Assembly: GCA_020444275.1 (NCBI GenBank)
Contig: JAHLLG010000002.1
Span: 248,001 to 312,000, forward strand
Origin: Bacteroidota bacterium
Lineage (GTDB): Bacteria > Bacteroidota > Bacteroidia > Bacteroidales > UBA12077
DNA length: 64,000 nt
Reading direction: 5' to 3'
Program-made: the position numbers and the translations under genes
Part shown: positions 8,378 to 64,000 of the stretch, piece after piece
Layout: each line of letters begins with the position of its first letter
How positions within the stretch are numbered: the stretch's first letter is position 1
Notes under the pieces: model-generated
The model's database searches: none
What the model was told of the DNA's origin: nothing
The model's input: the letters and a program-made list of their open reading frames with translations, nothing else

Positions 8378-9733
8378 TTAATAAAAGTTAAAAACTAAAG
8401 TAAAAATTGTTTCTCCGGGTTCAGAATTAACTGAAATGTTTCCACCATGCAGTTGTATAATTTGACGTGCCAGACTTAATCCTATACCGGAACCTTTTTC
8501 TTTAGTAGTAAAGAATGGAACAAAAATCTGATTCATGATTTCCTGATCAATTCCTTTTCCGTTATCCTGAAATTTAAGAATGGTTTTATCTTGGATATCT
8601 TTGTAAGCAACTAATTTTATGAAGCCGTTTTTGTGATCAATTGCTTCAATGGAGTTTTTTATCAAATTAATACAAATCTGTTCGATATATTTCTTATCTG
8701 CATAAAGTTCCAGATCAAAAGGTTTTATTTCGATTTCAAGACTGATATTTTTTTCTTTTAGTTGATTTTTCATTAATAGCTCGAGATTATAGAATAATTC
8801 GGCCACTTTAATGGTTTCAAAATCTATTTTTTTTAGCGAAGCTATTTCTTTATAATTCTGTACAAATTGGATTAATCCTTCACTTCGTTTTGTAATTAGA
8901 CTTAATCCCTCTGATGTTTTTGCGATGATATCTTCTGATATCTCTTCTTTTGTAATCGTTTTGTGGTTATTATGGTATAAATCTTTTAATGAATCAGCTA
9001 AAGAACTAATTGGAGCTATGGAGTTATTAATTTCGTGGTTTAATACTCGTATCAGTTTATGCCATGAGAGTAATTCTTTTTCATTGAGCTCCGATTCTAT
9101 ATTTTGAAAAGAGATTAGTTTTAACTGATTCGATTTTTGTTTGAATTCAGTAACTCGTATTGCTAAAGGGATTGTTTTTGAGTTAAAGGTAATGTTTACC
9201 ATTTTTTCATCTCCTGCCGATGCATTTTTAATAAATTGATAAAATGCCGGATGAATATCCTGTAATGAGTTAATAGTAGAAATTTGCTTAATCTGAAGCA
9301 ACTCCATTGCATGCTTATTTGCTACATCAACTTTTCCATTACTGCTGAATGTGATTATTCCGGTTTGAGCACTTTCAATGAGTGTTTTTAAATACGACTC
9401 CTGGATTTCTTTGGATTGCGTAATATTAAAAATCTGGTTTTTAACATGCTCAATATCTTTTCTAAGTGATTCAGTGATATGAGGAAAAGCTTTATCGTGA
9501 AAAGCAAAAGACGCATCGTTCGTTTTTAGTGCAGAGAAAAAGTAGGCAATATCTTTATTAAATTTATTAATGTAATTAATAAGTAATACTACCTGCAATA
9601 GTAGTAGTATTATCAGCGAAATAATAGTAAAAAGCTTTTCTTCTTGAGCTAAAAAAGGTACAATGCTAAAACAGTTTACAAGAATTAAAACAATTCTAAG
9701 TACTATGTTAATATAGAATTTTTTATTGATCAC
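8378..9733 (-). CDS. Membrane sensor histidine kinase, NtrB-like (pair 1)
   Basis: 451 residues. Two transmembrane helices (about 8-30 and 34-57) are separated by only a few residues, so there is almost no periplasmic sensor. A PAS-like region (about 115-215) precedes the phospho-acceptor helix with LNHEINNSIAPI (His233), then a HATPase domain with N-box (INLIKNSIEAI), DNGKGID and [12 protein letters not shown]. It appears to start with a GTG that overlaps the regulator stop in a GTGA, implying coupled translation. It should phosphorylate the regulator encoded immediately upstream. Confidence 0.9.
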   Translation of the reverse strand: MINKKFYINIVLRIVLILVNCFSIVPFLAQEEKLFTIISLIILLLLQVVLLINYINKFNKDIAYFFSALKTNDASFAFHDKAFPHITESLRKDIEHVKNQIFNITQSKEIQESYLKTLIESAQTGIITFSSNGKVDVANKHAMELLQIKQISTINSLQDIHPAFYQFIKNASAGDEKMVNITFNSKTIPLAIRVTEFKQKSNQLKLISFQNIESELNEKELLSWHKLIRVLNHEINNSIAPISSLADSLKDLYHNNHKTITKEEISEDIIAKTSEGLSLITKRSEGLIQFVQNYKEIASLKKIDFETIKVAELFYNLELLMKNQLKEKNISLEIEIKPFDLELYADKKYIEQICINLIKNSIEAIDHKNGFIKLVAYKDIQDKTILKFQDNGKGIDQEIMNQIFVPFFTTKEKGSGIGLSLARQIIQLHGGNISVNSEPGETIFTLVFNFY

Positions 9734-11097
9734 GATTGTAAATTGTATTTTTTTATTTTGTTATGTAATGTTTGCCGGGTTAAGCCCAACTCCTTTGCGG
9801 CATCAATAATTTTACCCGAATTATTTTGCAGAGCGCGCTGAATAGCCATTCTTTCAATTTCTTCAAATTTTAATGGCCAATCGCTGGTTTTTTCTTCCTG
9901 TCTTAACATAAAATCTTCGGGTCTGAGCGTAGTATCATTCGATAATATGACGGCTTTTTCCATGGCATGTCTTAGTTCTCGAATATTTCCCGGCCATGAA
10001 TAATTCAGTAACGATTCTGAGGCCTTATTGCTAATCTTCAGTGTCGGTTTATCATATTTCGTGGTATAAAATTTAAGGTAATATTCGGCTATAGGGATAA
10101 TATCATCTTTGCGTTTTCGCAATGGAGGTAATTCAATTTGTACGGTATTAATCCGGTAAAAAAGATCTTCCCGGAATAAGCCCTCTTGAATGAGTTCATT
10201 AAGATTCTTATTGGTAGCAGTAATTAATCTAATATCAATCGATATTGGTTTATTGCTTCCAACCGGAGTTATTTCCTGCTTTTGAATAGCTGTTAAAAGC
10301 TTAGATTGCAGAGATACCGGAATATTTCCGATCTCATCCAAAAAAAGTGTTCCGCCGTTGGCAATTTCAAATCGACCAGTTCTGTCGTCTTTAGCATCAG
10401 TAAATGAGCCTTTTTTATGCCCAAATAATTCACTTTCAAATAGGGTGTCGGATATGGCTCCCATATCTACTGTAATCATTGGTTTTGTACTACGGGCCGA
10501 GTTTTTGTGAATTTCTCTGGCAATAAGTTCCTTGCCTGTGCCATTTTCACCTAATATTAAGATGTTTGCATCGGTTGAAGCTACTTTTTCAACCATAGAA
10601 AAAACCTGTTGCATTTCTGCAGATGAACCGATTATTTTATCACGCGGTTTGCTAATTTCGCTGCTTAACGATTTGTTGTCTTTCGATAGCTGGTCTATTT
10701 GTAACTGCGATTGCCTGATTTTTAGTGCCGACTTCAGAGTGTAGATTAATTTTTCATTATTCCACGGTTTTATAATAAAGTCGGTTGCACCTTCTTTCAT
10801 TGCCTTTACTGCCAGGTTTACATCTCCATATGCGGTTATCAATACCACGGCAGCTTTTTGATCGATTTTAAGAATTTCGTTCAGCCAGTAAATACCTTCG
10901 TTTCCAGTGTTTATTCCCGCAGAAAAGTTCATGTCGAGCAATACAACATCAAAGTGGTATTTTGTATATTCCGAAAGGATAAGATTAGGGTTCGAAATTG
11001 TTTTTACTATATCAAATTCACCATCCAACAGTATTTTTAACGAACGAAGAATGTTTTTATCATCATCAACAATTAAAATTTTTCCTACCTTTTCCAT
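9730..11097 (-). CDS. NtrC-type sigma-54 response regulator (pair 1)
   Basis: 455 residues. The receiver domain has acidic residues 11-13 and phospho-acceptor Asp55 in LLDMNF. The AAA+ domain has Walker A GENGTGKE (182-189) and a GSFTDA loop at 229-234 in place of the canonical GAFTGA that contacts sigma-54. A Fis-type helix-turn-helix ends the protein (AAKELGLTRQTLHNKI). It is divergent from a permease gene whose promoter region carries a sigma-54-like element, so it probably activates that gene. Confidence 0.93.
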   Translation of the reverse strand: MEKVGKILIVDDDKNILRSLKILLDGEFDIVKTISNPNLILSEYTKYHFDVVLLDMNFSAGINTGNEGIYWLNEILKIDQKAAVVLITAYGDVNLAVKAMKEGATDFIIKPWNNEKLIYTLKSALKIRQSQLQIDQLSKDNKSLSSEISKPRDKIIGSSAEMQQVFSMVEKVASTDANILILGENGTGKELIAREIHKNSARSTKPMITVDMGAISDTLFESELFGHKKGSFTDAKDDRTGRFEIANGGTLFLDEIGNIPVSLQSKLLTAIQKQEITPVGSNKPISIDIRLITATNKNLNELIQEGLFREDLFYRINTVQIELPPLRKRKDDIIPIAEYYLKFYTTKYDKPTLKISNKASESLLNYSWPGNIRELRHAMEKAVILSNDTTLRPEDFMLRQEEKTSDWPLKFEEIERMAIQRALQNNSGKIIDAAKELGLTRQTLHNKIKKYNLQS

Positions 11098-11221
11098 TTA
11101 TTTAACAAATGTTCATTTTCGTAAAAAGATTTTACCTAAATGTAAAATTTTTTTACATAAAAATATAGCAAAAACAATTTTTTTAGACTTAAGTGTTTGA
11201 TATATAGAAATTAAAAATTTT

Positions 11222-11237
11222 TGGTATTAAGTTGGTA
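11222..11237 (+). promoter_or_regulatory. Sigma-54-like promoter upstream of permease 1
   Basis: TGGTATTAAGTTGGTA places GG and GT exactly 10 bp apart, the sigma-54 -24/-12 spacing, with GT instead of GC. A start about 12 bp after the -12 element would give a leader of roughly 26 bases to the ATG at 11274. A second candidate, TGGTATCTGGTTTGG, begins at 11233; I cannot tell which is used. Confidence 0.55.
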
Positions 11238-11273
11238 TCTGGTTTGGAAAGTTAAATTTAAAAAACCAAAATC

Positions 11274-13703
11274 ATGTTTATAAATTTTTTAAAAGTATCC
11301 ATAAGAAATTTGATTCGCCATAAAAGTTATAGTCTGATAAATATTATCGGATTATCAATAGGGATGGCTTGTAGTATTATCATTGCATTGTTTGTTTTTG
11401 ATGAATTAAGCTACGATAAGTACAACGAAAATTACCAACAAATATACCGTTTAGGAATTAATGGTAGCTTTAACGGACAGGAAATGAGAGCTTACAGAAG
11501 TGGTTCTCCTGATGGTCCGGTGATTACATCTGAAGTTCCTGAAATAAAAAACTTTGCACGAGTAATCAGTGCGTCGTATAACGAAGAAGAGATTTTAATA
11601 ACTTATGAAGATAAAAGCTTTCTTCAGGAACGTGCTTACTTTGCAGACAGTACTTACTTCGATATTTTTACCTGTAATTTTATTGAAGGAGATCCCCAAA
11701 AGGCTCTGGCTAATCCAAATTCGCTGGTTTTAACAGAATCGGCAGCAGTGAAAATATTTGGAAATAAAGATGTTATGGGTAAAATGGTTAATATGTTAGA
11801 CGAAGAGTATACCGTAACAGCCATAATTGAAGATTGTCCGAGCAATACACATTTTCATTACTCCATGCTAGCTTCATTAGTTAGTATACCTGCTGCTGAT
11901 TTTACAACCTGGCTTAGTAATGATTATGCAACGACCTATTTTTTAATTGATGAAAATGCTGATATAAACCTGGTTAAGAAAAAAGTGAATGATGTTGCAA
12001 AAAGTTATGCTGAAAGCGAGTTGGAGAGTGGATTTGGCATAAAAATAGAGGAATTCTACAAGTCGGGGAATTACTTTGAATTTTTATTACAACCCATTGA
12101 ACGAATTCATTTGCATTCGCACACAAATTTCGAGATTGAACCAAACTCCAATATAATTTATGTTTATATCTTTTCGATCATTGCTGTTTTTATTCTAATA
12201 ATTGCCTGCGTTAATTTCATGAACTTGTCAACAGCACGATCGGCAACCAGGGCCAAGGAAGTAGGTGTTAGAAAGGTTGTTGGAGCTACTAAACGAAGTT
12301 TATTTAATCAGTTCATTTTAGAGTCTATTGTAATTAGTGTAATATCTCTGTTTATTGCAATGATTATTGTTGAATCGATATTGCCTGTATTTAATAATTT
12401 ATCGGGTAAAGCATTATCAGTAGGTTATTCATCAAATATTGTGGTAATTCCATTGCTACTGTTACTGGCATTATTTGTTGGAGTGTTCTCCGGCTTATAT
12501 TCAGCATCATATTTATCATCCATAAAAATATTATCGGTTTTCAAAGGATCTTTATTATCAGGTAAAAGTCAAAGTTGGTTTAGAAATGTTTTAGTTGTTT
12601 TTCAGTTTACCATTTCTATCGGGCTTTTTATATCAACCTTTATTATATACGATCAGATCAACTTACTTAAAAATAAAGATGTTGGCTTTAATAAGGAAAA
12701 TGTATTGTTAATTGAACGATCGAATGCTTTACGCTCATCAAGCGAATCGTTTAAGCAGGAGTTAATGAAACTGCCTAATGTAAAGAATGTTACTTTTTCC
12801 AATACCATTCCTTCAGGTCATTTTAGTGGGTTTCCATGCTCGGTTGAAGGCGATGATGCTTCCAGAACGTTTGTACCACGAATTCTTCGCACAGATTATG
12901 ATTATGCTGATGCATACGATTTAAAATTGAAGGAAGGACGCTTTTTCTCCAGAGAATTTAGTACGGATAGTTTTGCTTTAATTATTAACGAGGCTGCTGC
13001 AAAAGATTTTGGTTTTCAGGGATCAGCGGTGGGTAAACATATCATAACCAATTATGGTGGTGAAGTAACCAGGTGGCCTATCATAGGTGTTGTGGAGAAT
13101 TTCAATTTTAATTCACTATACCAGGATGTTGGACCGCTTGTTTTATTGAACCCTTCTTACTTAAGTTTAAATTATACCTCAGTTCGATTTACCAATGGAT
13201 TAAACCAGGAAAACATTCAGAGAGTGCAACAAGTTTGGGATAAGTATGTTGCAAATGCGCCATTTAAGTATAGCATTTTAGAAGATGAATTTAACAGTAT
13301 GCATAAAGAAGAATTCAGAACAGGACAGTTATTTGGTATATTTTCGGTATTAACCATATTTATTGCCTGTTTAGGACTTCTGGGGTTAGCATCATTTATT
13401 GCTCAGAATAAAACCAAAGAGATTGGAATCAGAAAGGCATTAGGAGCTTCGGTATTTAAAGTTACTGCATTGCTGCTAAAGCAATTTACATTTTGGGTAG
13501 TAATAGCTAATATTATTGCGTGGCCGGTTGCTTATTTTGCCATGCATAAGTGGCTTCAGAATTTTGCCTATAAAGTAGATATTCAGTGGTGGGTATTTAT
13601 TGTTTCAGCTGCGCTAGGCTTACTTATTGCAGTAGTTACAGTAAGTTATCAGGCAATTACTGCAGCACAAAAGAATCCGGTTGATTCTTTGAGGTACGAG
13701 TAA
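11274..13703 (+). CDS. MacB/FtsX-like ABC permease 1 (two-half, ~800 aa)
   Basis: 809 residues. Membrane helix near 20-43, a large extracytoplasmic MacB-type domain (about 50-285), three helices (near 290-315, 345-372, 392-417), a further helix near 437-462 opening the second half, a second extracytoplasmic domain, and three final helices (near 690-710, 740-760, 775-797). This is two MacB_PCD-FtsX halves in one chain. The C-terminus ends in NPVDSLRYE, shared by its paralogues. No ATPase or membrane-fusion protein is adjacent. It is divergent from regulator pair 1 and converges on kinase 2 with 1 bp between stop codons. Confidence 0.9.
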   Translation: MFINFLKVSIRNLIRHKSYSLINIIGLSIGMACSIIIALFVFDELSYDKYNENYQQIYRLGINGSFNGQEMRAYRSGSPDGPVITSEVPEIKNFARVISASYNEEEILITYEDKSFLQERAYFADSTYFDIFTCNFIEGDPQKALANPNSLVLTESAAVKIFGNKDVMGKMVNMLDEEYTVTAIIEDCPSNTHFHYSMLASLVSIPAADFTTWLSNDYATTYFLIDENADINLVKKKVNDVAKSYAESELESGFGIKIEEFYKSGNYFEFLLQPIERIHLHSHTNFEIEPNSNIIYVYIFSIIAVFILIIACVNFMNLSTARSATRAKEVGVRKVVGATKRSLFNQFILESIVISVISLFIAMIIVESILPVFNNLSGKALSVGYSSNIVVIPLLLLLALFVGVFSGLYSASYLSSIKILSVFKGSLLSGKSQSWFRNVLVVFQFTISIGLFISTFIIYDQINLLKNKDVGFNKENVLLIERSNALRSSSESFKQELMKLPNVKNVTFSNTIPSGHFSGFPCSVEGDDASRTFVPRILRTDYDYADAYDLKLKEGRFFSREFSTDSFALIINEAAAKDFGFQGSAVGKHIITNYGGEVTRWPIIGVVENFNFNSLYQDVGPLVLLNPSYLSLNYTSVRFTNGLNQENIQRVQQVWDKYVANAPFKYSILEDEFNSMHKEEFRTGQLFGIFSVLTIFIACLGLLGLASFIAQNKTKEIGIRKALGASVFKVTALLLKQFTFWVVIANIIAWPVAYFAMHKWLQNFAYKVDIQWWVFIVSAALGLLIAVVTVSYQAITAAQKNPVDSLRYE

Positions 13704-13704
13704 A

Positions 13705-15045
13705 TTAAAACTCTAATATAAAAGTGGTTTTATCTGTAGTAGCTTGAACTGTGATATTTCCACCATGCAAACGCATAATCTGACGAGCAAGGCTTAATCC
13801 AATTCCGGAGCCTTGCTCTTTTGTTGTAAAGAATGGAACAAAAATATTATCTAATATTTCATCGGAGATTCCTTTTCCATTATCCATGATTAAAATTTGA
13901 TGCTTTCCCTCCACAGTTTTTTCATGTGATAATATGATTTTTGTTGCATCCGCTTCCACAGAGTTCTTAATAAGGTTAATAAGTATTTGTTCTATTTGGT
14001 TTTTATCAATTACCATAGAATTATCGGAACGTGAATATGTTTTTAGCTCAATACCTTTACCTTCCAGATCCTTTTTCCAAAATGCTTGAACATGATCTAA
14101 TAGAGAAGAAATATCTGTTTTTTCAAATGTAGGTTCGGGTAGTTTTGAAATAGTTCGAAACTGATCAATAAATTTCTGTATTCCTTTGTTGCGCTCCTGA
14201 ACGATTTTTAATCCTGCGGCAATATCTTCAATGATCTCCTGGCTAAGTGATTCCAGTTCATGCGTTTTATTATTCTCAGGATTTGTAATAATATCATTTA
14301 GCGTGTCAATGGTAGATGAAATTGGACTTATAGAATTCATAATTTCATGACGCAAGATTCTTACCATTTTTTGCCATGCGTCCAATTCCTTCTTATCCAG
14401 CTCGTGATTAATGTCCTGCACCGAAACTAACTTTAATTTTTCCTCTTTTGTTTTAAGTTCAGTTGCCCGAATAACAAGCTGTGTCAGGTTATTATGAACC
14501 TTTACTTTAATCAAGCTTTGCTCCTGAATATTAATGCTCTGTAAGGTATCTTCGAAATCACCATGAAGCATATTTAAATCCGATATATGTGTTGGATTTT
14601 CTATGTGCAACAATGCTTTAAAGGCTTTATTACATAACTTTATTTTGCCGGTACTATCAAATACAAGTAAGCCAACCGTAGCATGTTCTATAATGGTTTT
14701 ATAGTAAAAATCCTGTTGTACGTTCTTCTCTTTAAGCTTGATAATTTGTTGATTTACACGCTGAAGTCGTTTGCTTAATCTGAAATAATCCTGACTCTGT
14801 TCTTTATTACTCAGAAGAATAGAAGATTCATCATACTTAATGGAATCGAAAAATGAAATCAAATCACGATTTACATAGTTTAATCTCCGAATTAGAAGAA
14901 TAATTTGGATTATGATTAGTACAACAATGTTGGCATCAATAACTATATCGTTATATTTATTGTGAGCTATTGGCAAGAGGAAACAACTGGCAACTAGAAG
15001 AACAATCCTAAAAATAATATTGTAATATAGATTTCTAAATATCAT
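13705..15045 (-). CDS. Membrane sensor histidine kinase, NtrB-like (pair 2)
   Basis: About 446 residues from the ATG at 15045 ([10 protein letters not shown]); the longer frame from 15081 is less likely because the chosen start gives the same 11-bp overlap with the regulator gene seen in pairs 3 and 4. Two N-terminal membrane helices, a PAS-like domain, an H-box with [12 protein letters not shown], and a HATPase domain with DNGKGIS and [12 protein letters not shown]. Partner of the regulator encoded immediately upstream. Confidence 0.88.
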
Positions 15046-16408
15046 ATTTTTCGATTTTGCGGTAAAGCGTTTGCCGGCCAACTTTAAGCTCTTTGGCTGT
15101 TTCGCTTATATTCCAGTTGTTTCTGCCTAGTGCATTTTTTATGATTATTTTTTCGCCTTCTTCTAATGAAAGAATCTTATCTAATTTAGCGTTTGCTGTT
15201 TCAGGTTTTTCAAAAAAGAAGTCATCTGATGCAAGTGTATTTCCATTACATAATATCACCCCTTTTTCAATAGTATGTTTCAACTCACGTATATTACCTG
15301 GCCAGGAATAATTAATGATTTGTTCCATTGCTTTATTGTTTATTCTTAAGCCAGGTTTATTATAATGTGAACTGTACATCTGCAAGAAGTGGTTGGTTAA
15401 ACTTATGATATCTTCTTTTCGCTCACGTAATGGAGGTAAAATAATTTGTACAGTATTTATTCTATAAAGCAAGTCTTCTCTGAATAGATTATCTTCTATG
15501 ACTTGTTTAATATCTTTATTTGTTGCCGATATCAGTCGAATATCAATTGGTGTAGATGTATTTGAGCCTATCTTAGTAATTTGTCGGTTTTGTAAAGCAG
15601 TTAACAACTTGGCTTGCATGGTAAATGAAAGATTTCCGATTTCATCCAAGAACAATGTTCCACCAGACGCTGCTTCAAATTTCCCTGTTCTTTCTTCTTT
15701 TGCATCGGTAAATGAGCCTTTACAATGCCCGAAAAGTTCACTTTCGAAAAGATTCTCACTCAATGCAGCCATATCTACGCTCATGAAAACCTCATTTTTT
15801 CGTTCTGATAACTGATGAATTCTCCGTGCAATAAGTTCTTTCCCGGTACCATTTTCTCCTAATATCAAAACATTAGCATCTGTTTGCGAAACTTTTTCTA
15901 CCATGGCAAACACTTTCTTCATACTTTCAGATTCACCACCAATAAAATGAATATCAGCATTAAGGTTTGTGTTTATAGCCGCTTGCTTTTCTTCTAACTT
16001 TTTAACTTTTAATTTTGATTGACGCATTCCAAATGCAGCCTGCAATGTAGCAAGCAGTTTCTCGTTGTTCCAGGGTTTTTCAACAAAATCAAAACCACCT
16101 TGTTTTATAGCTTTAACAGCAAGTTCTGTATCGCCATACGCGGTAATGAGGATTACAATAGTTTCGGGTGATTTCTTTTTGATCTCGGTTAACCAAAACA
16201 AACCCTCGTTACCGGAATTTATGCCGGCAGTAAAATTCATGTCCAATAAAACAATATCAATATCATGCTTATCTAAAGTCTGGTAAATATGATTTGGATT
16301 GCTTAAAGTAAGAACTTCGCGGAATTTATATTTAAGAAATAACTTTAAAGAATTTAAAATACTCTGATTGTCATCAATTACAAGTACTGTTCCGTCAGTT
16401 TTGTTCAT
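15035..16408 (-). CDS. NtrC-type sigma-54 response regulator (pair 2)
   Basis: About 457 residues from the ATG at 16408 (MNKTDGTVLVIDD); the longer frame begins at a GTG and adds 25 residues with no counterpart in the paralogues. Receiver Asp56 in LLDMNF, an AAA+ domain with GENGTGKE and a GSFTDA loop (GAFTGA position), and a C-terminal Fis-type helix-turn-helix (AKELKVGRQTLYRKI). Divergent from permease 2, whose upstream region carries the best sigma-54-like element in the window. Confidence 0.92.
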   Translation of the reverse strand: MNKTDGTVLVIDDNQSILNSLKLFLKYKFREVLTLSNPNHIYQTLDKHDIDIVLLDMNFTAGINSGNEGLFWLTEIKKKSPETIVILITAYGDTELAVKAIKQGGFDFVEKPWNNEKLLATLQAAFGMRQSKLKVKKLEEKQAAINTNLNADIHFIGGESESMKKVFAMVEKVSQTDANVLILGENGTGKELIARRIHQLSERKNEVFMSVDMAALSENLFESELFGHCKGSFTDAKEERTGKFEAASGGTLFLDEIGNLSFTMQAKLLTALQNRQITKIGSNTSTPIDIRLISATNKDIKQVIEDNLFREDLLYRINTVQIILPPLRERKEDIISLTNHFLQMYSSHYNKPGLRINNKAMEQIINYSWPGNIRELKHTIEKGVILCNGNTLASDDFFFEKPETANAKLDKILSLEEGEKIIIKNALGRNNWNISETAKELKVGRQTLYRKIEKYDI

Positions 16409-16468
16409 TGCTATCCATTTTGAATAATCAAATTTATAACTAAATTTAGTTACGACAAAACCAATTGT

Positions 16469-16504
16469 ATGATTTTGGAACACGTAATGGATGATTTTGA
16501 AACA
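16469..16504. promoter_or_regulatory. Tandem half-sites, possible NtrC-type enhancer (permease 2)
   Basis: Near-identical 14-mers ATGATTTTGGAACA (16469-16482) and ATGATTTTGAAACA (16491-16504) repeat with a period of 22 bp. Their GAACA/AAACA cores start 93 and 71 bp upstream of the -24 GG at 16571, a typical enhancer distance. The same core and spacing recur upstream of permeases 4, 5 and 6. Confidence 0.5.
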
Positions 16505-16569
16505 ATGTAGCCATATAGCGTGTTGTGTTTATTTTTGTATGTGTCATATAATAAGTTAATTATGTTTTT

Positions 16570-16585
16570 TGGTATAGCATTGGCA
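16570..16585 (+). promoter_or_regulatory. Sigma-54-like promoter upstream of permease 2
   Basis: TGGTATAGCATTGGCA has GG at 16571-16572 and GC at 16583-16584, ten bases apart, matching the sigma-54 consensus at its invariant positions. The predicted start near 16596 gives a 21-base leader to the ATG at 16617. The neighbouring divergent gene encodes an NtrC-type activator. Confidence 0.7.
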
Positions 16586-16616
16586 ATTGAACAGGAAACG
16601 TAAAAACAGAAAAGCT

Positions 16617-18986
16617 ATGTTTATAAAAAATTTTATACTATCTATTCGAATTATGTTAAGAAGTAAATTATTTTCATTTCTTAACATTGCCGGTTTGGCA
16701 TTTGGTTTAGCCTGTACCATTTTACTATATTTATGGATTACCGATGAATTAAACTTTAATAAACATCACGAAAAGTTAGACCGCATTTATCTTGTTCAGC
16801 ACTGGCAGCATTATGGTGATGAAGATTTCCATTGCCAGGTTTCGCCATCGCCACTGGCTGCTGCATTTAAAGAAAAATATCCTGAGGTTGAAAATACGTC
16901 ACGATTTACCTATGGATATAAAGGATTGGTAAATCATGAAGAAAAGAAATTCACTCAGGAAGTGCTTGCTGCCGACCCTTCAATTTTAGATATATTTACT
17001 GTAAAATTTATTTATGGAACAAAAGCAAATTTTGGCAGTGGTGTAAATAATATCATTATTTCTAAAAAAGTATCTGAACAGTATTTTGGTAGTATTGATC
17101 CGGTAGGTAAAACGCTTCTGGTTGACGATAAATATGCATTTACGGTACAAGGTGTATTCGAAGATTTACCTCAAAATACCGACTTTAGATTCGATCTGTT
17201 AATTCCATTTGAAAAATTGCGCGACTTTGGACAGAATCTCGATAGCTGGGGTAACAATTGGTGTTTTACATTTGCATTATTAAAAGAGGGTGTTGACTAT
17301 AAAGAGCTTGAGAAAAAGGCAGTAACCTTCTTGGATGAGATGAAGAATAATCCGGAAGACAGTAAAAACGAAGTATTCTTCAATCCATTAAAAAGAGTTC
17401 ATTTGTATGATATTAAAGGTGGAGGAAAAATTGAAACAGTCCGGATTTTTGGTTTAATAGCTATTTTCATTTTGTTGATTGCCTGTTTTAACTATACTAA
17501 CCTGGCAACTGCACGAGCCGAAAACAGAGCGAAAGAAATTGCTGTTCGTAAAGTACTAAGTGCCTCAAAGAAAAAACTCATCATGCAGTTTCTGGGCGAA
17601 TCGTTCGTGTATACGTTCCTGGCATTAAATATATCCTTAATAATTGTGAGATTGTTGCTCCCGACATTTAATAATATGGCTGGTAAAGAGCTTGTAATGG
17701 AATATACAAATCCGATTATACTTACTAGCTTACTTTTAATATGGGTTTTTACCAGCTTTTTTGCTGGCTTATACCCGGCATTTGTACTCTCATCATTTAA
17801 AGTTACAAGTACTCTAAAAGGTTCTAAAGGAAGCGCATCAAAAGGAGGAGTTTTTAGGAAAATTCTTGTAGTGATTCAGTTCTCTTTATCTATTGGTTTA
17901 ATAATATGCACGTTAGTAGTGAGTAAACAGTTGAATTTTTTAAAGAATAAAGATTTGGGTTTTGATAAAAATGATATGATCTATATCCCTGTTCAGGGTA
18001 AAATGATGGAACGATATAATAGCATTAAAGCAGAATTAATAGCAAACGAAAATGTTATAAATGTTACTCGAACTTCTCACTATAATCCTTACTCAATTGG
18101 AAGTAATGGTGGAGGTTGGAACTGGGAGGGTAAAGACCCGAATTTAAATCCATTGGTTTATTTAATGGTTGGCGACTTTGGTTTTCCGGAAACATTTAAA
18201 ATTAAGATGCTAAAGGGACGGTTTTTTTCTTCAGAATATACATCCGATACTGCAACTTGTGGTAACGATTTGAAAATAGTTGTTAATAAAACTTTTGCAG
18301 ATCTAATTGGTTACGATGGAATTACTGAAAAATTTCTTACCCGTGGAGGAGAAACTAAATATTCCATAATTGGAGTAATTGACGATTTCCATTTCTTACC
18401 TGCTGATCATGAGATGGAACCACTTCTTATGTACTATAGACCTAACTGGTACAGGCATATTTATGTAAGAATTTCAGACAAGAATTATTCGGAGACTGTT
18501 GGCTTTATTGAGTCTGTTTTCGAAAAATTTAATCAGGGATTTGTTTTTGAATATGGTTTCCTTGATCAAGGATATGAGAATTTATACAGAACCGAACAGC
18601 GAATAGGAAAAATAATGCGATCGTTTACCATTTTTGCCATACTTATATCGTGTCTTGGGTTATTTGGATTAGCTGCATTTTCTGCTCAAAAGAGAACCAA
18701 AGAAATTGGAATACGAAAAGCTTTAGGTGCACCGGTAAAAAATATCGTTTTTATGTTGGCAAAAGATATGACCAAATGGGTTTTAATTGCCAATATTATT
18801 GCCTGGCCGTTGGCATATTATTTTATGAATAAATGGCTTAATAATTATCCATATCACTTTGACTTAACTATTTGGATATTTGTTTTGGCGGGAGCAATTG
18901 CATTTGGACTGTCGTTACTTACGGTTATTTATCAGGCTTTGGTAGCTTCGGTTAAAAATCCTGTGGATAGTTTGAGATACGAGTAG
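16617..18986 (+). CDS. MacB/FtsX-like ABC permease 2
   Basis: About 789 residues from the ATG at 16617 (MFIKNFILSI); the longer frame begins at a TTG inside the predicted promoter and is rejected. It has the two-half layout of permease 1: an N-terminal helix, an extracytoplasmic domain, FtsX helices near the middle (IAIFILLIACFNYTNLATARA), a second half with FRKILVVIQFSLSIGLI, three C-terminal helices and the tail NPVDSLRYE. A strong terminator follows. Confidence 0.9.
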   Translation: MFIKNFILSIRIMLRSKLFSFLNIAGLAFGLACTILLYLWITDELNFNKHHEKLDRIYLVQHWQHYGDEDFHCQVSPSPLAAAFKEKYPEVENTSRFTYGYKGLVNHEEKKFTQEVLAADPSILDIFTVKFIYGTKANFGSGVNNIIISKKVSEQYFGSIDPVGKTLLVDDKYAFTVQGVFEDLPQNTDFRFDLLIPFEKLRDFGQNLDSWGNNWCFTFALLKEGVDYKELEKKAVTFLDEMKNNPEDSKNEVFFNPLKRVHLYDIKGGGKIETVRIFGLIAIFILLIACFNYTNLATARAENRAKEIAVRKVLSASKKKLIMQFLGESFVYTFLALNISLIIVRLLLPTFNNMAGKELVMEYTNPIILTSLLLIWVFTSFFAGLYPAFVLSSFKVTSTLKGSKGSASKGGVFRKILVVIQFSLSIGLIICTLVVSKQLNFLKNKDLGFDKNDMIYIPVQGKMMERYNSIKAELIANENVINVTRTSHYNPYSIGSNGGGWNWEGKDPNLNPLVYLMVGDFGFPETFKIKMLKGRFFSSEYTSDTATCGNDLKIVVNKTFADLIGYDGITEKFLTRGGETKYSIIGVIDDFHFLPADHEMEPLLMYYRPNWYRHIYVRISDKNYSETVGFIESVFEKFNQGFVFEYGFLDQGYENLYRTEQRIGKIMRSFTIFAILISCLGLFGLAAFSAQKRTKEIGIRKALGAPVKNIVFMLAKDMTKWVLIANIIAWPLAYYFMNKWLNNYPYHFDLTIWIFVLAGAIAFGLSLLTVIYQALVASVKNPVDSLRYE

Positions 18987-19010
18987 AGTAGTTTAAAATT
19001 ATTTGCATAC

Positions 19011-19060
19011 AACGTTCGCTACTGTTACATGAATGTACGGTAGCGAACGTTTTTATTTTG
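19011..19060 (+). terminator. Terminator after permease 2
   Basis: Perfect 12-bp arms AACGTTCGCTAC (19011-19022) and GTAGCGAACGTT (19040-19051), followed by a T-rich tail. It separates permease 2 from permease 3, so permease 3 needs its own promoter. Confidence 0.88.
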
Positions 19061-19205
19061 CGTTATCTTTTTTTAATTAGCTGTTAATCAAAGATAACAT
19101 ATTCTTGGTTCGGATTTTGATAAAGTGAAATCATTATTTGCATTTCATTTTATGCGCAAATAGAATTATATACTTTTAACTAAACTTTAACATTTTTACT
19201 ATTGA

Positions 19206-19227
19206 CTACACCGCATATAAGGTGTAG
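19206..19227. promoter_or_regulatory. Inverted repeat in permease 3 leader
   Basis: CTACACC (19206-19212) and GGTGTAG (19221-19227) form a perfect 7-bp inverted repeat with an 8-bp spacer, 31 bp upstream of the start codon. It could be an operator or a leader hairpin. No other permease upstream region has it. Confidence 0.4.
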
Positions 19228-19258
19228 ATTTATTATTTAATTTGAAAAGAACCTAATT

Positions 19259-21640
19259 ATGCTTAAAAATTTATTCAAAACAGCCATTCGAAACATTTTT
19301 AAAGATTTGGGATATAGTGGTTTAAATATCCTGGGGTTAACGATAGGAATTGCAAGTGCCCTATTTTTAGTAATTTATATTGCTGATGAAGTCAGCTACG
19401 ACCGATATCACGAAAAAGCAGATCGTATCTATCGTGTTTCATCTCATATATCTGAAACCGACGATGAATTTACGTGGATTGTTGCTCAAATTCCTTTTGC
19501 CCCTCAGCTTGTTCAGGATTATCCTGAAGTGGAGCAATCAGTTCGTTTCATTGATGTAGGACGCGAACTTTTTAAGTTTGAAGATAAAGAGTTTTTCGAG
19601 GAAGATTTCTATTTTGCAGATTCCAATATTTTTGAGGTATTTACCTATGATTTTATTTATGGTAATCCGGAAAGTGCATTGATCGAGCCGAACACCATTG
19701 TATTAACAAAAACAGTTGCGGCAAAATATTTTGGTAAGGTTAACCCAATAAATAAAACACTAGTTAACGGTGACGATACCTATAAAGTAACCGGAGTAAT
19801 TGAGGATGTTCCCTTTAACTCGCATTTCAGATTCGATGGACTACTATCACGTAGTAGCTTACCAAAAGAAATGGGGAGTTGGGGTAATTTTGGAGTTTTT
19901 ACCTATGTTCTCTTACCTGAAAATTTAGATTATAAGGAGTTTGAAGCCAAAATACAGGAGATGTATGGAAAGTACATGGCCGAAATTTTTGAGCGATTGG
20001 GAATAAAAATAGAATATGTTCTGGAACCAATTACAGATATTCATCTTAATTCAACGAACCCAAGTGAGCCGGAACCTACAGGAAGTATGGCTTATGTTAT
20101 TATATTTGGAATTGTTGCACTGTTTCTGGTTTTAATAGCTGCAATGAACTATATGAATTTGGCTACGGCCCGTTCAGCCAAGCGTGCTCGCGAAGTGGGA
20201 TTACGTAAAGTGGTTGGTTCGCATCGTGAAGGATTAATTTTTCAGTTTTTAACTGAATCCACACTGTTTACTTTACTATCGTTGGTGTTTAGTATTATTT
20301 TGGTTGCCCTGTTGTTACCACAGTTTAATCAACTGGCAGGTAAATCATTTCAGGCAGATGTACTGTTTTCTCCCGTTGTAATACTAAGTATCATTGCAGT
20401 TGTAGTTGTCGTAGGTATTTTAGGAGGAAGTTATCCGGCATTTTATCTATCACGATTCAACCCGGTAAATGTTCTCAAAGGAGAGGTTACTAAAGGAACA
20501 TCAGGAAGTATGTTTAGGAAAATTCTTGTTGTTATTCAGTTTACCATTTCTGTAGCTATGATTGTTTCTACTTTAGTGGTATATAAGCAATTGAATTATT
20601 TGAAAACCAAAGATCTGGGTTATGATATGAAAAATGTAATAAGCCTTGAATTTACCACGCGGGATATGGTTAGTAAATATCCGGTTTTAAAGCAGGCTTT
20701 ACTTGAAAATCCAAACATTAAACATGTAAGTTCTACAAGTACTCGCGTGGGTGAAGGTTCTGGTAAAATTCTATTAAATGTTGAAACAAACGATGGAATG
20801 CAACAACGAGGAATCAACCTTGCCAGAGTAGATCATGATTTTGTTGAAACAATGGGTATAACAATGCTTGAAGGAAGAGATTTTCAGGAAGATATGCCTT
20901 CAGATACCTTATTGGGAGTTATTGTGAATGAGACCATGGCAAAAAGATTAAACTGGGATGATCCTATTGGGAAAAAGGTAGAACTGCAGGGAAGAAATGG
21001 ACGGAATTTCTTGCAAGCTCGTGTAATCGGATTAATGAAAGATTATCATCAAACCGGATTATATAATGAAATCGAGACTTTCATGTTGTATTATCGGGTA
21101 AATAACAGGCTTGTTTACGCAAAACTCGACGATGATAATGTGCAGGAAACGATTCGATATATTGAAAAACGATGGAACGAGATATTTCCGGAACAGCCTT
21201 TCGAGTATTCATTTCTTTCCGATCGTTTTAGTGAACAGTTCGGAGCTGATGAAAAACGCGGATTTATTTTTACCTTATTTACTGTTTTAGCCATATTAAT
21301 TGCATGCTTAGGTTTATTTGGTTTAGCTTCTTATACGGTTGAACAAAAAACAAAAGAGATTGGTATTAGAAAAGTAGTTGGTGCTAGTGAAGGTACTGTA
21401 GTTAAATTAATCTCGCGTGAATTTTTAATTTTGGTTGCCATATCAATTGCAATTGCATTTCCACTGACGTATTACTTTATGCGCGATTGGTTGCAGCAAT
21501 TTGTTTATAGAACGAATCTGGGATTATTTGTTTTTCTTCTGGCAGGTTTAATTACAATTGCCATAACATTTATTACCATAAGTTATCAGGCTCTTAAGGC
21601 TGCCAATGCAAATCCTGCAGAGTCTTTAAGAGTTGACTAG
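19259..21640 (+). CDS. MacB/FtsX-like ABC permease 3
   Basis: 793 residues with the same two-half architecture: an N-terminal helix (YSGLNILGLTIGIASALFLV), an extracytoplasmic domain, mid-protein FtsX helices (VALFLVLIAAMNYMNLATARS), a second half beginning FRKILVVIQFTISVAMI, three C-terminal helices and the tail NPAESLRVD. Unlike permeases 1, 2, 5 and 6 it has no divergent kinase/regulator pair; it lies between two terminators. The start has paralogue-like spacing to the first helix. Confidence 0.9.
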   Translation: MLKNLFKTAIRNIFKDLGYSGLNILGLTIGIASALFLVIYIADEVSYDRYHEKADRIYRVSSHISETDDEFTWIVAQIPFAPQLVQDYPEVEQSVRFIDVGRELFKFEDKEFFEEDFYFADSNIFEVFTYDFIYGNPESALIEPNTIVLTKTVAAKYFGKVNPINKTLVNGDDTYKVTGVIEDVPFNSHFRFDGLLSRSSLPKEMGSWGNFGVFTYVLLPENLDYKEFEAKIQEMYGKYMAEIFERLGIKIEYVLEPITDIHLNSTNPSEPEPTGSMAYVIIFGIVALFLVLIAAMNYMNLATARSAKRAREVGLRKVVGSHREGLIFQFLTESTLFTLLSLVFSIILVALLLPQFNQLAGKSFQADVLFSPVVILSIIAVVVVVGILGGSYPAFYLSRFNPVNVLKGEVTKGTSGSMFRKILVVIQFTISVAMIVSTLVVYKQLNYLKTKDLGYDMKNVISLEFTTRDMVSKYPVLKQALLENPNIKHVSSTSTRVGEGSGKILLNVETNDGMQQRGINLARVDHDFVETMGITMLEGRDFQEDMPSDTLLGVIVNETMAKRLNWDDPIGKKVELQGRNGRNFLQARVIGLMKDYHQTGLYNEIETFMLYYRVNNRLVYAKLDDDNVQETIRYIEKRWNEIFPEQPFEYSFLSDRFSEQFGADEKRGFIFTLFTVLAILIACLGLFGLASYTVEQKTKEIGIRKVVGASEGTVVKLISREFLILVAISIAIAFPLTYYFMRDWLQQFVYRTNLGLFVFLLAGLITIAITFITISYQALKAANANPAESLRVD

Positions 21641-21673
21641 TTTTTTTAGTTAATAATAATATAGATTTTAAAG

Positions 21674-21703
21674 TTGGGTACTGTATGCAGTGCCCAATTT
21701 TTT
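21674..21703 (+). terminator. Terminator after permease 3
   Basis: TTGGGTACTG (21674-21683) pairs with CAGTGCCCAA (21688-21697), with one G-U pair and a 4-base loop, followed by a run of T. Confidence 0.8.
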
Positions 21704-21715
21704 ATGTGCATTATT

Positions 21716-21740
21716 GAACAAGATCGTCCATATTCGAACA
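21716..21740. promoter_or_regulatory. Tandem GAACA half-sites (permease 4)
   Basis: GAACA occurs at 21716-21720 and 21736-21740, a period of 20 bp, 82 and 62 bp upstream of the candidate -24 GG at 21798. The arrangement parallels the repeats upstream of permeases 2, 5 and 6. Confidence 0.38.
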
Positions 21741-21796
21741 TTTCTAATTGATGTGTAATTTTTGTAAGTAACAGATAAACAAGAGGTAAAGCGATT

Positions 21797-21812
21797 TGGA
21801 ATATGGTTTGAT
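21797..21812 (+). promoter_or_regulatory. Weak sigma-54-like element (permease 4)
   Basis: TGGAATATGGTTTGAT has GG (21798-21799) and TTGA with the correct 10-bp spacing, but GA instead of GC at -12. The predicted leader to the ATG at 21844 is about 21 bases, as for permease 2. Confidence 0.4.
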
Positions 21813-21843
21813 AATGTTATATGAACCAATAAATTCGAAAAAA

Positions 21844-24258
21844 ATGTTTAAACATAATCTCATAATTGCATTAAGGAATATCCTTAAATATTGGAATTAT
21901 TCAATTATCAATATTGGAGGATTAGCCATTGGGTTGGCTAGTTTTATATTTATTGTTCTCTACATCGATGATGAACTAAAATATGATCAGTATCACGAGA
22001 ATGCCGAAAACATTTATCGTGTAAACAGATTGTATAATAGCAACGACGTTGATGAAGACGCAGCAACACTCTCTTTCCCTGCAGGCCCGACTTTAGTACT
22101 TGATTACCCTAATTTGGTTAAGAACCAGGTTCGTTTTTTTAATCAGCTAAGAAATCAATGGTTTTTCGATTACCAGAAAAGCGAAGATGAAATTATTCGA
22201 TTTAATGAGCCTCATTTTATGCTGGCTGATTCCACGGTGTTTGATATTTTTACATTCCCGTTTGTGGAGGGTGACCCCAATACTGCCCTGGATAATCCAG
22301 GAACAATTGTAGTTACCGAATCAACAGCTAAACGATATTTTGGCGATGAACCGGCAATAGGCAAAGTTTTACGTGTTGAAGAAGGACTAAATTTTGAAGT
22401 CACAGGTGTTATCAAAGATTTACCAACACAATCGCACCTAAAAATTGATATTTTAGGCTCTTTAAATACATTCAGACAGTTTACTCCAAACGGACAGTTT
22501 CCGCAAACTTGGATATGGAATCCATGTTGGACATACGTTTTATTGCATGATGGCACAGATCCTGCATTGTTAGATGAAAAGATGCCGGAATTTTACGAGA
22601 ATCATTATAACGATCTTCGCGATGCTGACGTCTCTCTTTATTTGCAACCATTAACCGATATTCACCTTAAATCGCATCATGTTTATGAAATGCGACCAAA
22701 TAGCAATATAGTTTATGTATATATCCTATCAATTGTAGCTGCAATTATTTTAATTCTCGCCTGTATTAACTTTATGAATCTGGCAACAGCCAGTTCTGCA
22801 GGAAGAGCAAAAGAAATTGGAATCAAAAAAGTTTTTGGTAGTCATAAAAAGAGTTTGGTTTTTCAATTTTTGAGTGAAGCTGTTGTTCAGAGCTTTTTTG
22901 CGATGCTAATTGCTATTATCATTGTTGAACTATTGCTTCCAGGGTATAACAATTTTACGGGCAAAGATATTACACCATCCTTTTTGGTAGAGCTTAAAAT
23001 ACTCGGATTTATTCTAAGTGTTGCATTTGTTGTCGGATTAATTTCAGGAACATACCCGGCTTTTGTTTTATCATCGTTTAAACCACTTAAAGTATTAAAA
23101 GGAGCATTAAAGAGTGGTGCTAAGTCTGGTACTGCAAGAAAAGTATTAGTTATTGTGCAGTTCTCAATTTCAATAAGTTTAATAATTGGTAGTTTGGTTG
23201 TATTTGCCCAGTTGAAGTTTTTGCGAAATGCAGAACTTGGATTTAAAAAAGATCATATTATCAACATTGAAAGGGTAGGGCCGTTATTCAGAAACTATGA
23301 AGCCTTCAAACAGGAGCTTTTAAGTCATAAAGATATTGATTATGTTACCGGAGCAGAGGATTATTTAGGCATAAACCATAATACCCGCGATTATGAAGTG
23401 GAAGGATTAACTCCCGGTCAACGTTTTTATATTCCAACATTTATGGTCGACTGGGACTTTATCGAAACATTCGATATTAAAGTTCTTGAAGGCCGTGCAT
23501 TCTCAAGAGATTTCCAAAGTGATACCATTAATGCAGTCATGATTAACGAAACTATGGCCAAGGATTTAGGTTGGAGCAATGCCGAAGCAATTGGAAAAAG
23601 AATTATTTCGCGCGATGGCGACGAAAGAGTAATTGGCGTGTATAAAGATTTTAATGCCATGTCGTTGCATCGTCCGGTTAATAAATTTATTCTAGATATG
23701 TTTCGTCGTCCGGAAGTATTTGCCAGAGTGATCTCTATACGGTTTAGTTCAAATAACTACCAGGAAGTAATTAAGCATATTGAGAATACCTGGAAAGAAT
23801 TTGTTCCCACACGACCATTCGAATATCAGTTTTTCGATCAACAATTAGATAATTTATACAAAGATGAATTACGGTTTGGTAAATTTTCAGTGATGCTTAC
23901 GGTGCTTGCTATTATAATTGCAAGTATGGGACTGGTAGGATTAACATCATTCTTAGCAGAACAAAGAACCAAGGAAATAGGTATCCGAAGGGCATTAGGA
24001 TCGTCAACAGGTGGTATTGTTAGTTTAATGGCTAAAGAGTTTTTATGGTTATTACTGGTTGCGAATATTATTGCCTGGCCAATTACGTACTATGCTACAA
24101 CAAACTGGTTAGAAAGTTACTCACGACATATCTCAACCAACTGGGGGATTTATTTCTTATCAGGATTTTTAACCTTGTTCATTGCAATGACTATTATTAC
24201 TTATAGGGCATATAAGACTGCATTGTTAAATCCTGCAGAGACCTTAAGATATGAGTAA
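21844..24258 (+). CDS. MacB/FtsX-like ABC permease 4
   Basis: About 804 residues from the ATG at 21844 (MFKHNLIIALRN), which aligns with the paralogue starts; the longer frame begins with a TTG at 21796 that lies within the candidate promoter. Two-half MacB/FtsX layout: an N-terminal helix, an extracytoplasmic domain, mid helices (AAIILILACINFMNLATASS), a second half from ARKVLVIVQFSISISLI, three C-terminal helices and the tail NPAETLRYE. No adjacent regulator pair; followed by a terminator. Confidence 0.9.
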   Translation: MFKHNLIIALRNILKYWNYSIINIGGLAIGLASFIFIVLYIDDELKYDQYHENAENIYRVNRLYNSNDVDEDAATLSFPAGPTLVLDYPNLVKNQVRFFNQLRNQWFFDYQKSEDEIIRFNEPHFMLADSTVFDIFTFPFVEGDPNTALDNPGTIVVTESTAKRYFGDEPAIGKVLRVEEGLNFEVTGVIKDLPTQSHLKIDILGSLNTFRQFTPNGQFPQTWIWNPCWTYVLLHDGTDPALLDEKMPEFYENHYNDLRDADVSLYLQPLTDIHLKSHHVYEMRPNSNIVYVYILSIVAAIILILACINFMNLATASSAGRAKEIGIKKVFGSHKKSLVFQFLSEAVVQSFFAMLIAIIIVELLLPGYNNFTGKDITPSFLVELKILGFILSVAFVVGLISGTYPAFVLSSFKPLKVLKGALKSGAKSGTARKVLVIVQFSISISLIIGSLVVFAQLKFLRNAELGFKKDHIINIERVGPLFRNYEAFKQELLSHKDIDYVTGAEDYLGINHNTRDYEVEGLTPGQRFYIPTFMVDWDFIETFDIKVLEGRAFSRDFQSDTINAVMINETMAKDLGWSNAEAIGKRIISRDGDERVIGVYKDFNAMSLHRPVNKFILDMFRRPEVFARVISIRFSSNNYQEVIKHIENTWKEFVPTRPFEYQFFDQQLDNLYKDELRFGKFSVMLTVLAIIIASMGLVGLTSFLAEQRTKEIGIRRALGSSTGGIVSLMAKEFLWLLLVANIIAWPITYYATTNWLESYSRHISTNWGIYFLSGFLTLFIAMTIITYRAYKTALLNPAETLRYE

Positions 24259-57791: not shown

Positions 57792-57850
57792 ACGATTTCG
57801 TAATGGGTACTAAGATACAAATAATTCTGATTGATTATTTAAAATGCTTC

Positions 57851-57886
57851 AAAAACGAACAGTGTGTTGCGCTAAAAACGAACAGT
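57851..57886. promoter_or_regulatory. Perfect 13-bp tandem repeat, possible NtrC-type enhancer (permease 5)
   Basis: AAAAACGAACAGT occurs at 57851-57863 and again at 57874-57886, period 23 bp. The GAACA cores begin 94 and 71 bp before the -24 GG at 57951, almost the same distances as upstream of permease 2 (93 and 71). An AACA-GTG-TGTT dyad lies at 57858-57868. Confidence 0.6.
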
Positions 57887-57949: not shown

Positions 57950-57965
57950 TGGAATACAAATTGGT
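57950..57965 (+). promoter_or_regulatory. Sigma-54-like promoter upstream of permease 5
   Basis: TGGAATACAAATTGGT has GG (57951-57952), then TTGG with G-G at -13/-12 after 10 bp. It matches TTG of the -12 box but not the C. The predicted leader to the ATG at 58010 is about 34 bases. Confidence 0.5.
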
Positions 57966-63392: not shown

Positions 63393-63408
63393 TGGTATAA
63401 CATTGGTT
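63393..63408 (+). promoter_or_regulatory. Sigma-54-like promoter upstream of permease 6
   Basis: TGGTATAACATTGGTT has GG (63394-63395) and GT (63406-63407) at 10-bp spacing, nearly identical to the element of permease 2. The predicted leader to the ATG at 63438 is about 19 bases. Confidence 0.6.
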
Positions 63409-63437: not shown

Positions 63438-64000
63438 ATGATTACAAATTATATAAAAATTGCTTTAAGAAATTTCTATAGAAATAAATCTATAACCTTT
63501 ATTAAAATTCTGGGACTTGCATTAGGTTTGGCTGTTACCTTATTTATTCTCATTTATGTAAGTACAGAAACAAGTTACAACGATGATTATAAAAATAAGA
63601 ACAGAATTGTAAGAGTATGTCAGAATAATAAAATACACGGATGGCATACAGCAAATACTCCATTTCCAATGAGAGATGGATTATTAGATAATTTTCCAGA
63701 AGTAGAAAAAGCTACAAGATACATGATTATTAATGATTTTATTTTTAATAAACACGGTGAGGAGTTTACAGGTAATAAAATGCTTGGTGTCGATGAAAAC
63801 TTTTTTGAAATATTTAGTATTCAAAAAGTAAAGGGAGATGTAAGTAGTTTTATTTCAGGTAATAATATTGTTGTTACAGAATCTGCTGCAAACAGATATT
63901 TTGGTTCAACCGATATCATAAATGAATCTGTGGAAACAAAAATAGGAGAGAAGGATGTTGTGTTAAACATTATAGCCGTAATCAAGGATTTCCCTTCGGC
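63438..64000 (+). CDS. MacB/FtsX-like ABC permease 6 (partial)
   Basis: Open from the ATG at 63438 (MITNYIKIALRNFYRNKS) to the window edge, 187 codons. N-terminal helix near 20-42 (FIKILGLALGLAVTLFIL), then the start of the extracytoplasmic MacB-type domain with NFPEVEKATRYM and ENFFEIFSIQ, as in the other permeases. The C-terminal three quarters are outside the window. Confidence 0.88.
   Translation, partial: MITNYIKIALRNFYRNKSITFIKILGLALGLAVTLFILIYVSTETSYNDDYKNKNRIVRVCQNNKIHGWHTANTPFPMRDGLLDNFPEVEKATRYMIINDFIFNKHGEEFTGNKMLGVDENFFEIFSIQKVKGDVSSFISGNNIVVTESAANRYFGSTDIINESVETKIGEKDVVLNIIAVIKDFPS

Follow-up and report, generated by a model that had tools for sequence, protein, structure and literature searches.

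What does a bacterium gain from placing a two-component switch beside each of several permeases that come with neither an ATPase nor an adaptor? The question arises in a 64,000-nucleotide stretch of a Bacteroidota bacterium from the Bacteroidales (assembly GCA_020444275.1), hereafter the window, which covers C9:248001-312000 of a draft genome of 4.22 Mb in 10 contigs (98.87% complete). A preliminary description of its first block saw two kinase/regulator pairs, each back to back with a permease of about 800 residues, followed by two further permeases, and this arrangement was borne out by both the open reading frames (ORFs) and Pfam. The ORFs also agree that the same design recurs at 55-64 kb (55085-64000), where it continues past the window. 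What that description had overlooked is that the modules have no ATPase or adaptor of their own, and that the likely solution lies at other loci of the genome. From computed genes and gene counts, promoter-like sites, upstream DNA that is module-specific and kept between orthologues, and the kinship of orphan and operon permeases, we think it reasonably likely that each module is a permease unit with its own switch and that all belong to a single dispersed tripartite ATP-binding cassette (ABC) exporter of the MacAB/DarBCD type. The genes concerned are as follows.

8378..9733, minus strand: HK1, sensor kinase of module 1 (Pfam and AlphaFold2 (AF2): two transmembrane (TM) helices, PAS-like region, DHp, HATPase_c)
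9730..11097, minus strand: RR1, NtrC-type sigma54 activator of module 1 (Pfam Response_reg, Sigma54_activat, HTH_8; alignment)
11274..13703, plus strand: permease A, duplicated MacB_PCD-FtsX (Pfam; AF2; fold matches)
13705..15081, minus strand: HK2, sensor kinase of module 2, likely start 15039 (Pfam)
15035..16483, minus strand: RR2, NtrC-type sigma54 activator of module 2, likely start ATG 16405 (Pfam; alignment)
16587..18986, plus strand: permease B, likely start ATG 16617 (Pfam)
19259..21640, plus strand: permease C, without strong sigma54 site or regulator (Pfam; site matrix; tree)
21796..24258, plus strand: permease D, likely start 21844, without sigma54 site or regulator (Pfam; site matrix; tree)
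55085..56425, minus strand: sensor kinase of module 3 (Pfam)
56415..57791, minus strand: sigma54 activator of module 3 (Pfam Sigma54_activat; alignment)
58010..60373, plus strand: permease of module 3 (Pfam)
60374..61726, minus strand: sensor kinase of module 4 (Pfam)
61716..63089, minus strand: sigma54 activator of module 4 (Pfam Sigma54_activat; alignment)
63438..64000, plus strand: permease of module 4, truncated where the window ends (ORFs)

All five permeases scanned carry two MacB_PCD and two FtsX stretches, and these domains together with the fold (AF2, fold matches) place them among the MacB/FtsX-type (type VII) ABC permeases. HATPase_c was detected in all six kinases scanned, and the kinase catalytic residues are invariant in an alignment of 13 paralogues. 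Both RR1 and RR2 contain Response_reg, Sigma54_activat and HTH_8, the receiver, sigma54-activation and Fis-type helix-turn-helix parts of an NtrC-type regulator, in agreement with the alignment of 13. The earlier label NtrB/NtrC therefore holds for the type and fails for the nitrogen-regulation equivalogs, whose NCBIfam cut-offs were not reached (RR1, 351 of 558.6 and 290 of 620 bits; HK1, 72.9 of 240 bits). Permease A and the module 3 permease converge on the kinase of the following module with gaps of 1 base (13703-13705) and 0 bases (60373-60374), so the modules are packed end to end.

Genome-wide, Pfam Sigma54_activat detected 18 strong full-length activators and three weak partial matches, and a profile built on the window's four regulators placed 13 of them as close relatives above 600 bits, with the other five at 374 bits or below. 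A kinase of the same type follows every one of the 13. Twelve of the 18 activators lie divergently to a duplicated permease; with neighbours drawn at random from an assumed 3600 genes, the binomial p is about 1e-17. A motif scan flagged no ATPase gene in any of these 12 modules. The thirteenth regulator/kinase pair (C7:832299-835008) is instead divergent from an adaptor gene (C7:835212-836501) and an ATPase gene (C7:836542-837225). The genome encodes 31 duplicated permeases, of which 12 head modules, 4 trail one at 11-13 bp and 15 lie elsewhere, permeases C and D included; the module 4 permease itself ends at C9:313819, with two further permeases behind it at a spacing of 11-12 bp.

The mechanism that we propose follows the general account of NtrC action. 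An NtrB-type kinase would phosphorylate the neighbouring NtrC-type activator, which would bind module-specific DNA in the shared intergenic region and enable RNA polymerase-sigma54 to initiate at the -24/-12 promoter of the divergent permease. This duplicated permease, whose single chain comprises two MacB-like halves, would then be energised by a shared DarD/MacB-type ATPase and joined by a shared DarC/MacA-type adaptor, encoded together at C7 under the thirteenth regulator pair, and a TolC-type channel would complete the machine; we infer both the sharing and the direction of export.

The C7 ATPase has one close relative in the genome. Among 12 ABC ATPases from fetched genome regions, a profile of the relatives' exporter ATPases gave 466 bits to the C7 protein, 451 bits to C4:140279-140962 and 266 bits to the next. 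The first two are 84.6% identical, the best identity to C7 beyond that pair is 48%, and the C4 gene stands directly behind a duplicated permease (C4:137837-140962). A whole-genome search with the C7 ATPase at E 1e-75 matched C7 and C4 alone among the best 24 of 64 candidates, and the adaptor had a single match at E 1e-40 among the best 15 of 33. Two of the 38 inner branches of the ATPase tree were starred, and the identity gap alone was used as evidence. Outer membrane channels of the OEP type are encoded elsewhere in the genome (26 domain matches). Other MacB/LolD-like ATPases at 42-48% identity are also present, and they favour an alternative in which distant MacB/LolD/FtsE-type ATPases energise the orphan permeases, or the permeases work free of ATP, and the C7 unit is a separate exporter that shares a regulator ancestor. 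This alternative looks unlikely to us in view of the relatives' operons, in which these permease clades are joined with an ATPase and an adaptor from the families seen at C7, of the joint presence or absence of ATPase, permease and kinase across genomes, and of the conservation of the coupling stretches in the permeases.

To follow the family, 119 genomes of the order were searched at E 1e-50 (kinase), 1e-60 (permease) and 1e-75 (ATPase), with counts resting on the best-scored candidates per genome (adaptor 15, kinase 14, permease 8, ATPase 24), so that the relatives' permease counts are lower bounds. Kinase, permease and ATPase families were each found in 64 genomes, all three together in 61/119, and none of the three in 52/119. 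Kinases number 13 in G000 and 6, 5 and 5 in the next highest genomes, with a single one in 43/64, and the ATPase is present in 1 or 2 copies in 61/64 genomes (3, 3 and 5 in the remaining three). From these genomes we took 75 kinase loci, 52 with a visible gene divergent from the regulator, and in 41 of those 52 that gene is an exporter component: adaptor, ATPase and permease in 15, permease but neither of the other two in 12, adaptor and ATPase without permease in 6, and other mixtures in 8. Of the remaining 23 loci, 13 have a codirectional neighbour, 5 run into the end of the contig, 4 lack a regulator beside the kinase and 1 has no recognised kinase. An OEP-family (TolC) gene adjoins the exporter genes in the three relatives tested (L167, L118 and L166); in L167 the order is OEP, adaptor, ATPase, permease. 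Among 20 named loci related to the core kinase (13 titled Bacteroidales, 4 Bacteroidetes), 16 have adaptor and ATPase divergent from the regulator and no permease in the flanking DNA covered, which reached at most 8 kb in either direction and stopped earlier where a contig ended; adaptor, permease and ATPase are present in L114 (Ignavibacteriales).

The orphan permeases are kin to those in operons. In the permease tree, which has long branches and from which we cite starred groups alone, permease D groups with the operon permeases of L128 and L139 (100/100), permease C with that of L141 (99/96), and permease A with that of L122, the C4 permease and one more (97/96). Orphans that are sister to operon permeases therefore look like detached components of a tripartite exporter. 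Within the 31 permeases, conservation is highest in the coupling-helix stretches (0.65 and 0.81 vs 0.39-0.56 elsewhere). In a quick tree of regulator plus kinase, the adaptor-module pair clusters with the relatives' adaptor-first pairs, and the 13 home pairs are spread across both deep halves of the family; the expansion of regulator/kinase pairs therefore looks old rather than a recent burst.

A sigma54-type site was detected in each of the four modules of the window, alongside candidate activator palindromes in the first two.

11222..11237, plus strand: -24/-12 sigma54-type site TGGTATTAAGTTGGTA aimed at permease A (leave-one-out matrix)
16570..16585, plus strand: -24/-12 sigma54-type site TGGTATAGCATTGGCA aimed at permease B (matrix and general consensus)
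57950..57965, plus strand: -24/-12 site TGGAATACAAATTGGT of module 3 (matrix)
63393..63408, plus strand: -24/-12 site TGGTATAACATTGGTT of module 4 (matrix; another site is best by the general consensus)
11140..11158, no strand: candidate activator palindrome ATGTAAAA-TTT-TTTTACAT of module 1 (p=0.18 alone)
16437..16452, no strand: candidate activator palindrome TAACTAAATTTAGTTA of module 2 (p=0.13 alone)

The matrix was built from 13 home sites first picked by eye, with leave-one-out scoring and foreign genomes as guards against circularity. In all 13 home intergenic regions the left-out site was the best forward match, aimed at the permease or adaptor and lying 39-66 nt upstream of the likely start. 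The general sigma54 consensus gave a combined p=2e-7 in the permease direction and p=0.71 in the regulator direction; in module 1 the best hit by the consensus alone is shifted 11 nt downstream and overlaps 11222..11237. With a -24/-12 element upstream and one copy of rpoN in the genome, these are predicted sigma54-dependent promoters. Foreign intergenic regions, scanned against single-letter shuffles at 49/52 divergent loci (L168, L185 and L188 fall below the 40-nt minimum gap), had a significant forward site in 15/16 adaptor-first loci (reverse 0/16), 8/11 permease-first (reverse 2/11), 2/4 ATPase-first (reverse 2/4) and 7/17 with another first gene (reverse 0/17); in the single regulator-first locus the site was not significant. 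Among the 26 home permeases with an upstream gap of at least 40 nt, 13 score at least 9, namely the 12 module permeases, which are the training set, and C9:232258, which is not; 13 of 240 other upstream regions reach 9.0, the adaptor's own among them. A strict genome-wide pattern, TGGCNNNNNNNTTGC, was tried and dropped: it hit 101 sites vs 45 when reversed and left the module regions unmarked, the -12 part there often being TTGG.

The sigma54-contact loop of the activators reads G[AS]FTDA in 12/13 family members and FTNA in the other (GAFTGA in the NtrC reference), FTGA (4) or FTSA (1) in the genome's other five activators, and FTDA in 66/69 family members of the relatives, where 3 were unmatched by the pattern.

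The upstream DNA addresses whether the switches are private. Between paralogues it is dissimilar (best cross score 24.1, median 16.3), and in a genome of the same genus with four orthologous modules, the orthologue's upstream region ranks 1 of 13 in 4/4 cases, scoring 40.7-110.5 where the second-best reaches at most 25.6. Close kinship of the two genomes accounts for part of this match, and one pair matches across 82 nt, longer than an operator. Two of the four pairs retain a clear palindrome, unchanged in one (AGTGTTAAGTTTCTTAACACT). The best palindromes are centred 73-125 nt before the -24 element and differ module by module; over the 13 intergenic regions their combined p is 6e-4, and they exceed those of 86 control intergenic regions (p=0.002, with controls cut to 150 nt and module regions to at most 170 nt). 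We regard the orthologue-conserved, module-specific DNA as the main evidence that the switches are private, stronger than the dyad statistics. The proposal in the preliminary description that each activator drives its own permease is thus well supported by DNA signals, namely -24/-12-like sites in 13/13 regions, one of them weak, and upstream DNA kept by orthologues in 4/4. A competing view is that the regulator-permease cassette was merely copied often, with regulators that cross-talk and no private activator. The regulators and kinases are indeed all paralogues, the -24/-12 sites are alike across modules, and permease and regulator distances are mismatched at home, yet upstream DNA that differs among paralogues and matches between orthologues, partly through close kinship, makes mere copying distinctly improbable.

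The same description had proposed that the trees of kinase, regulator and permease paralogues should match pairwise. Across the 12 modules of this genome they do not: permease distances follow neither regulator distances (r=-0.07, p=0.61) nor kinase distances (r=0.03, p=0.44), with r=0.38 (p=0.052) between regulator and kinase, so permeases and switches may have been re-paired. Adding 12 permease-first foreign modules raised the correlations to 0.45-0.52 (p=1e-4), partly an orthologue effect, and both measures named the same nearest home module for 6/12 foreign modules (permutation p=2e-4), including 3/3 from the same genus. These comparisons suggest pairings that are stable in the short term and, in the long term, reshuffled or too diverged to trace.

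Several observations weigh against separately switched units of one exporter. Permease and regulator distances are unrelated among home paralogues, as described above, and 14 permeases have neither a switch nor a clear sigma54 site. The promoter signal is uneven: at C3:228200 the forward site scores below the reverse (4.5 vs 5.1; forward is higher in 12/13), the general consensus reaches p<0.05 singly in 5/13 regions, and its best match is the named site in 10/13 and a different one in 3/13. Single palindromes are weak against shuffles (2/13 at p<0.05), and only two of the four orthologue pairs keep a clear one, the match in the other two being DNA around an imperfect palindrome. Among relatives, 11/52 divergent loci face a non-exporter gene, and in 13 more the neighbouring gene is codirectional by the ORF calls. 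In operon-encoded permeases the first coupling stretch shows no excess conservation (0.55 vs 0.54 for TM1), and further, more distant MacB/LolD-type ATPases could serve the permeases.

What do the kinases sense? The statement that they have almost no periplasmic loop agrees with the AF2 model of HK1, in which membrane helices 3-28 and 31-70 are joined by a two-residue turn, the topology of the Bce-type intramembrane-sensing kinases. The membrane helices are followed by a long helix, region 125-211, and the DHp and catalytic parts; at a predicted template modelling score (pTM) of 0.43, this domain arrangement is uncertain. From its order of strands and helices, we read region 125-211 as a PAS-like cytosolic domain that had been overlooked. 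In Pfam, PAS_8 is above cut-off in HK2 (28.8 vs 21.8 bits), below it in HK1 and unlisted for the four other kinases scanned. Input may therefore come from the membrane, the permease or the cytosol. The loopless topology raises the idea that the adjoining permease is the sensor, binding substrate and signalling through the membrane to the kinase as in Bce systems, so that it is partly a receptor, which may coexist with separately switched exporter units. We consider such detection somewhat unlikely: the adaptor/ATPase module at C7 has the same kinase type without an adjoining permease, as have the 16/20 named loci, and the PAS-like domain offers an alternative input. Co-evolution between the TM part of the kinase and the permease was tried as a signal and rejected as not specific, the kinase catalytic region correlating as well with the permease TM part (0.34, p=0.016) and nothing emerging among the 12 home modules.

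Permeases C and D, also overlooked as probable units of their own, are each preceded by a strong terminator-type hairpin.

19008..19062, plus strand: terminator-type hairpin between permeases B and C (fold -24.5 kcal/mol, z -7.0)
21666..21712, plus strand: terminator-type hairpin between permeases C and D (fold -18.8 kcal/mol, z -4.75)

No strong sigma54 site was found before either gene (matrix scores 8.1 and -0.2). The two are therefore probably not tail genes of module 2, and are probably separate transcription units that may depend on a different sigma factor. For RR2, permease B and permease D, the TTG/GTG starts were probably called too far upstream; the called start of permease B begins one base past the end of the module 2 -24/-12 site. 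Outside the window, the duplicated permease at C9:232258-234618 has a strong sigma54 site but lacks an adjoining kinase/regulator pair, and its upstream DNA could be assigned to none of the 13 module upstream regions. At C10:185529-188740, a MacB/LolD-type ATPase is followed by two single permeases, with a strong sigma54-type site (15.3) upstream. Elsewhere in the window, by eye, 26990-30250 encodes a 1086-residue protein that looks secreted and has a C-terminal sorting-type tail, and 30432-32885 encodes 817 residues that look like an acyl-CoA synthetase fused to an acyltransferase.

The proposed system resembles several known ones in part. With DarBCD, the ABC transporter that exports darobactin (NF038008, NF038010, NF038007), it shares the set of permease, adaptor and ATPase; DarC and DarD are the best NCBIfam matches of the adaptor and ATPase, and DarB is the second-best of the five permeases scanned. 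The equivalog cut-offs are not reached (DarB 84-165 of 700, DarC 213 of 450, DarD 279 of 375 bits), and here the permeases are many and scattered, with sigma54 two-component switches. MacAB-TolC has the same MacB_PCD and FtsX domains, an adaptor, a MacB-type ATPase, matching folds and, in L167, L118 and L166, an OEP gene, whereas here the permease is duplicated in one chain without an ATPase domain and the parts are encoded apart. Relatives such as L167 keep adaptor, ATPase, permease and OEP together; in this genome they are split. ADOP, the acidobacterial duplicated orphan permease (TIGR03434), is the best NCBIfam match of 5/5 permeases scanned, at 244-285 bits and short of its 622.3 cut-off; like ADOPs, the permeases are duplicated and in many copies, and in this genome most have no adjoining ATPase, but here sigma54 regulators stand beside 12 permeases and an ATPase/adaptor partner family is proposed. 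BceABS likewise sets a loopless kinase beside an FtsX-type permease, and a BceABS chain is among the fold matches. Bce regulators are OmpR-type and BceB has one periplasmic domain, in contrast to the NtrC-type regulators, the two periplasmic domains and the 12 modules in which the motif scan flagged no ATPase gene. Sharing of an ATPase has precedent in MsmX and MsmK, each a multitask ATPase shown by experiment to serve many sugar-importer permease sets (PMC7658222); those are importers of another ABC type, whereas a MacB-type exporter would share its ATPase here. A 2025 study reported sigma54 promoters enriched upstream of COG0577 FtsX-like permeases in Bacteroidia, which it termed first evidence, and the accessible portion of its text makes no mention of dedicated activators, module-specific operators or a shared ATPase/adaptor (PMC12316311). 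The literature searched, which included few subscription journals, yielded no description of a MacB-type exporter divided into a common core and individually switched permeases, nor of NtrBC-permease modules whose ATPase/adaptor is separate. A search on 'duplicated orphan permease' and 'ADOP' gave unrelated papers only among the matches listed.

Duplicated orphan FtsX-type permeases can be abundant in one genome (31 here). This family provides an ATPase and an adaptor as candidate partners for them, a regulatory code, and relatives that still encode all the parts in a single operon, which makes the orphan-permease question directly testable. It is also a further case in which many sigma54 two-component switches, apparently insulated from one another, surround a single machine. 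More tentatively, as a possibility we would not yet call probable, the whole may be a hub-and-spoke system in which one constant adaptor/ATPase core, controlled by a regulator from that family too, works with about thirty interchangeable one-chain permeases, about half of them with private sigma54 two-component switches. If this is true, the cell refits a single trans-envelope pump by exchanging the permease.

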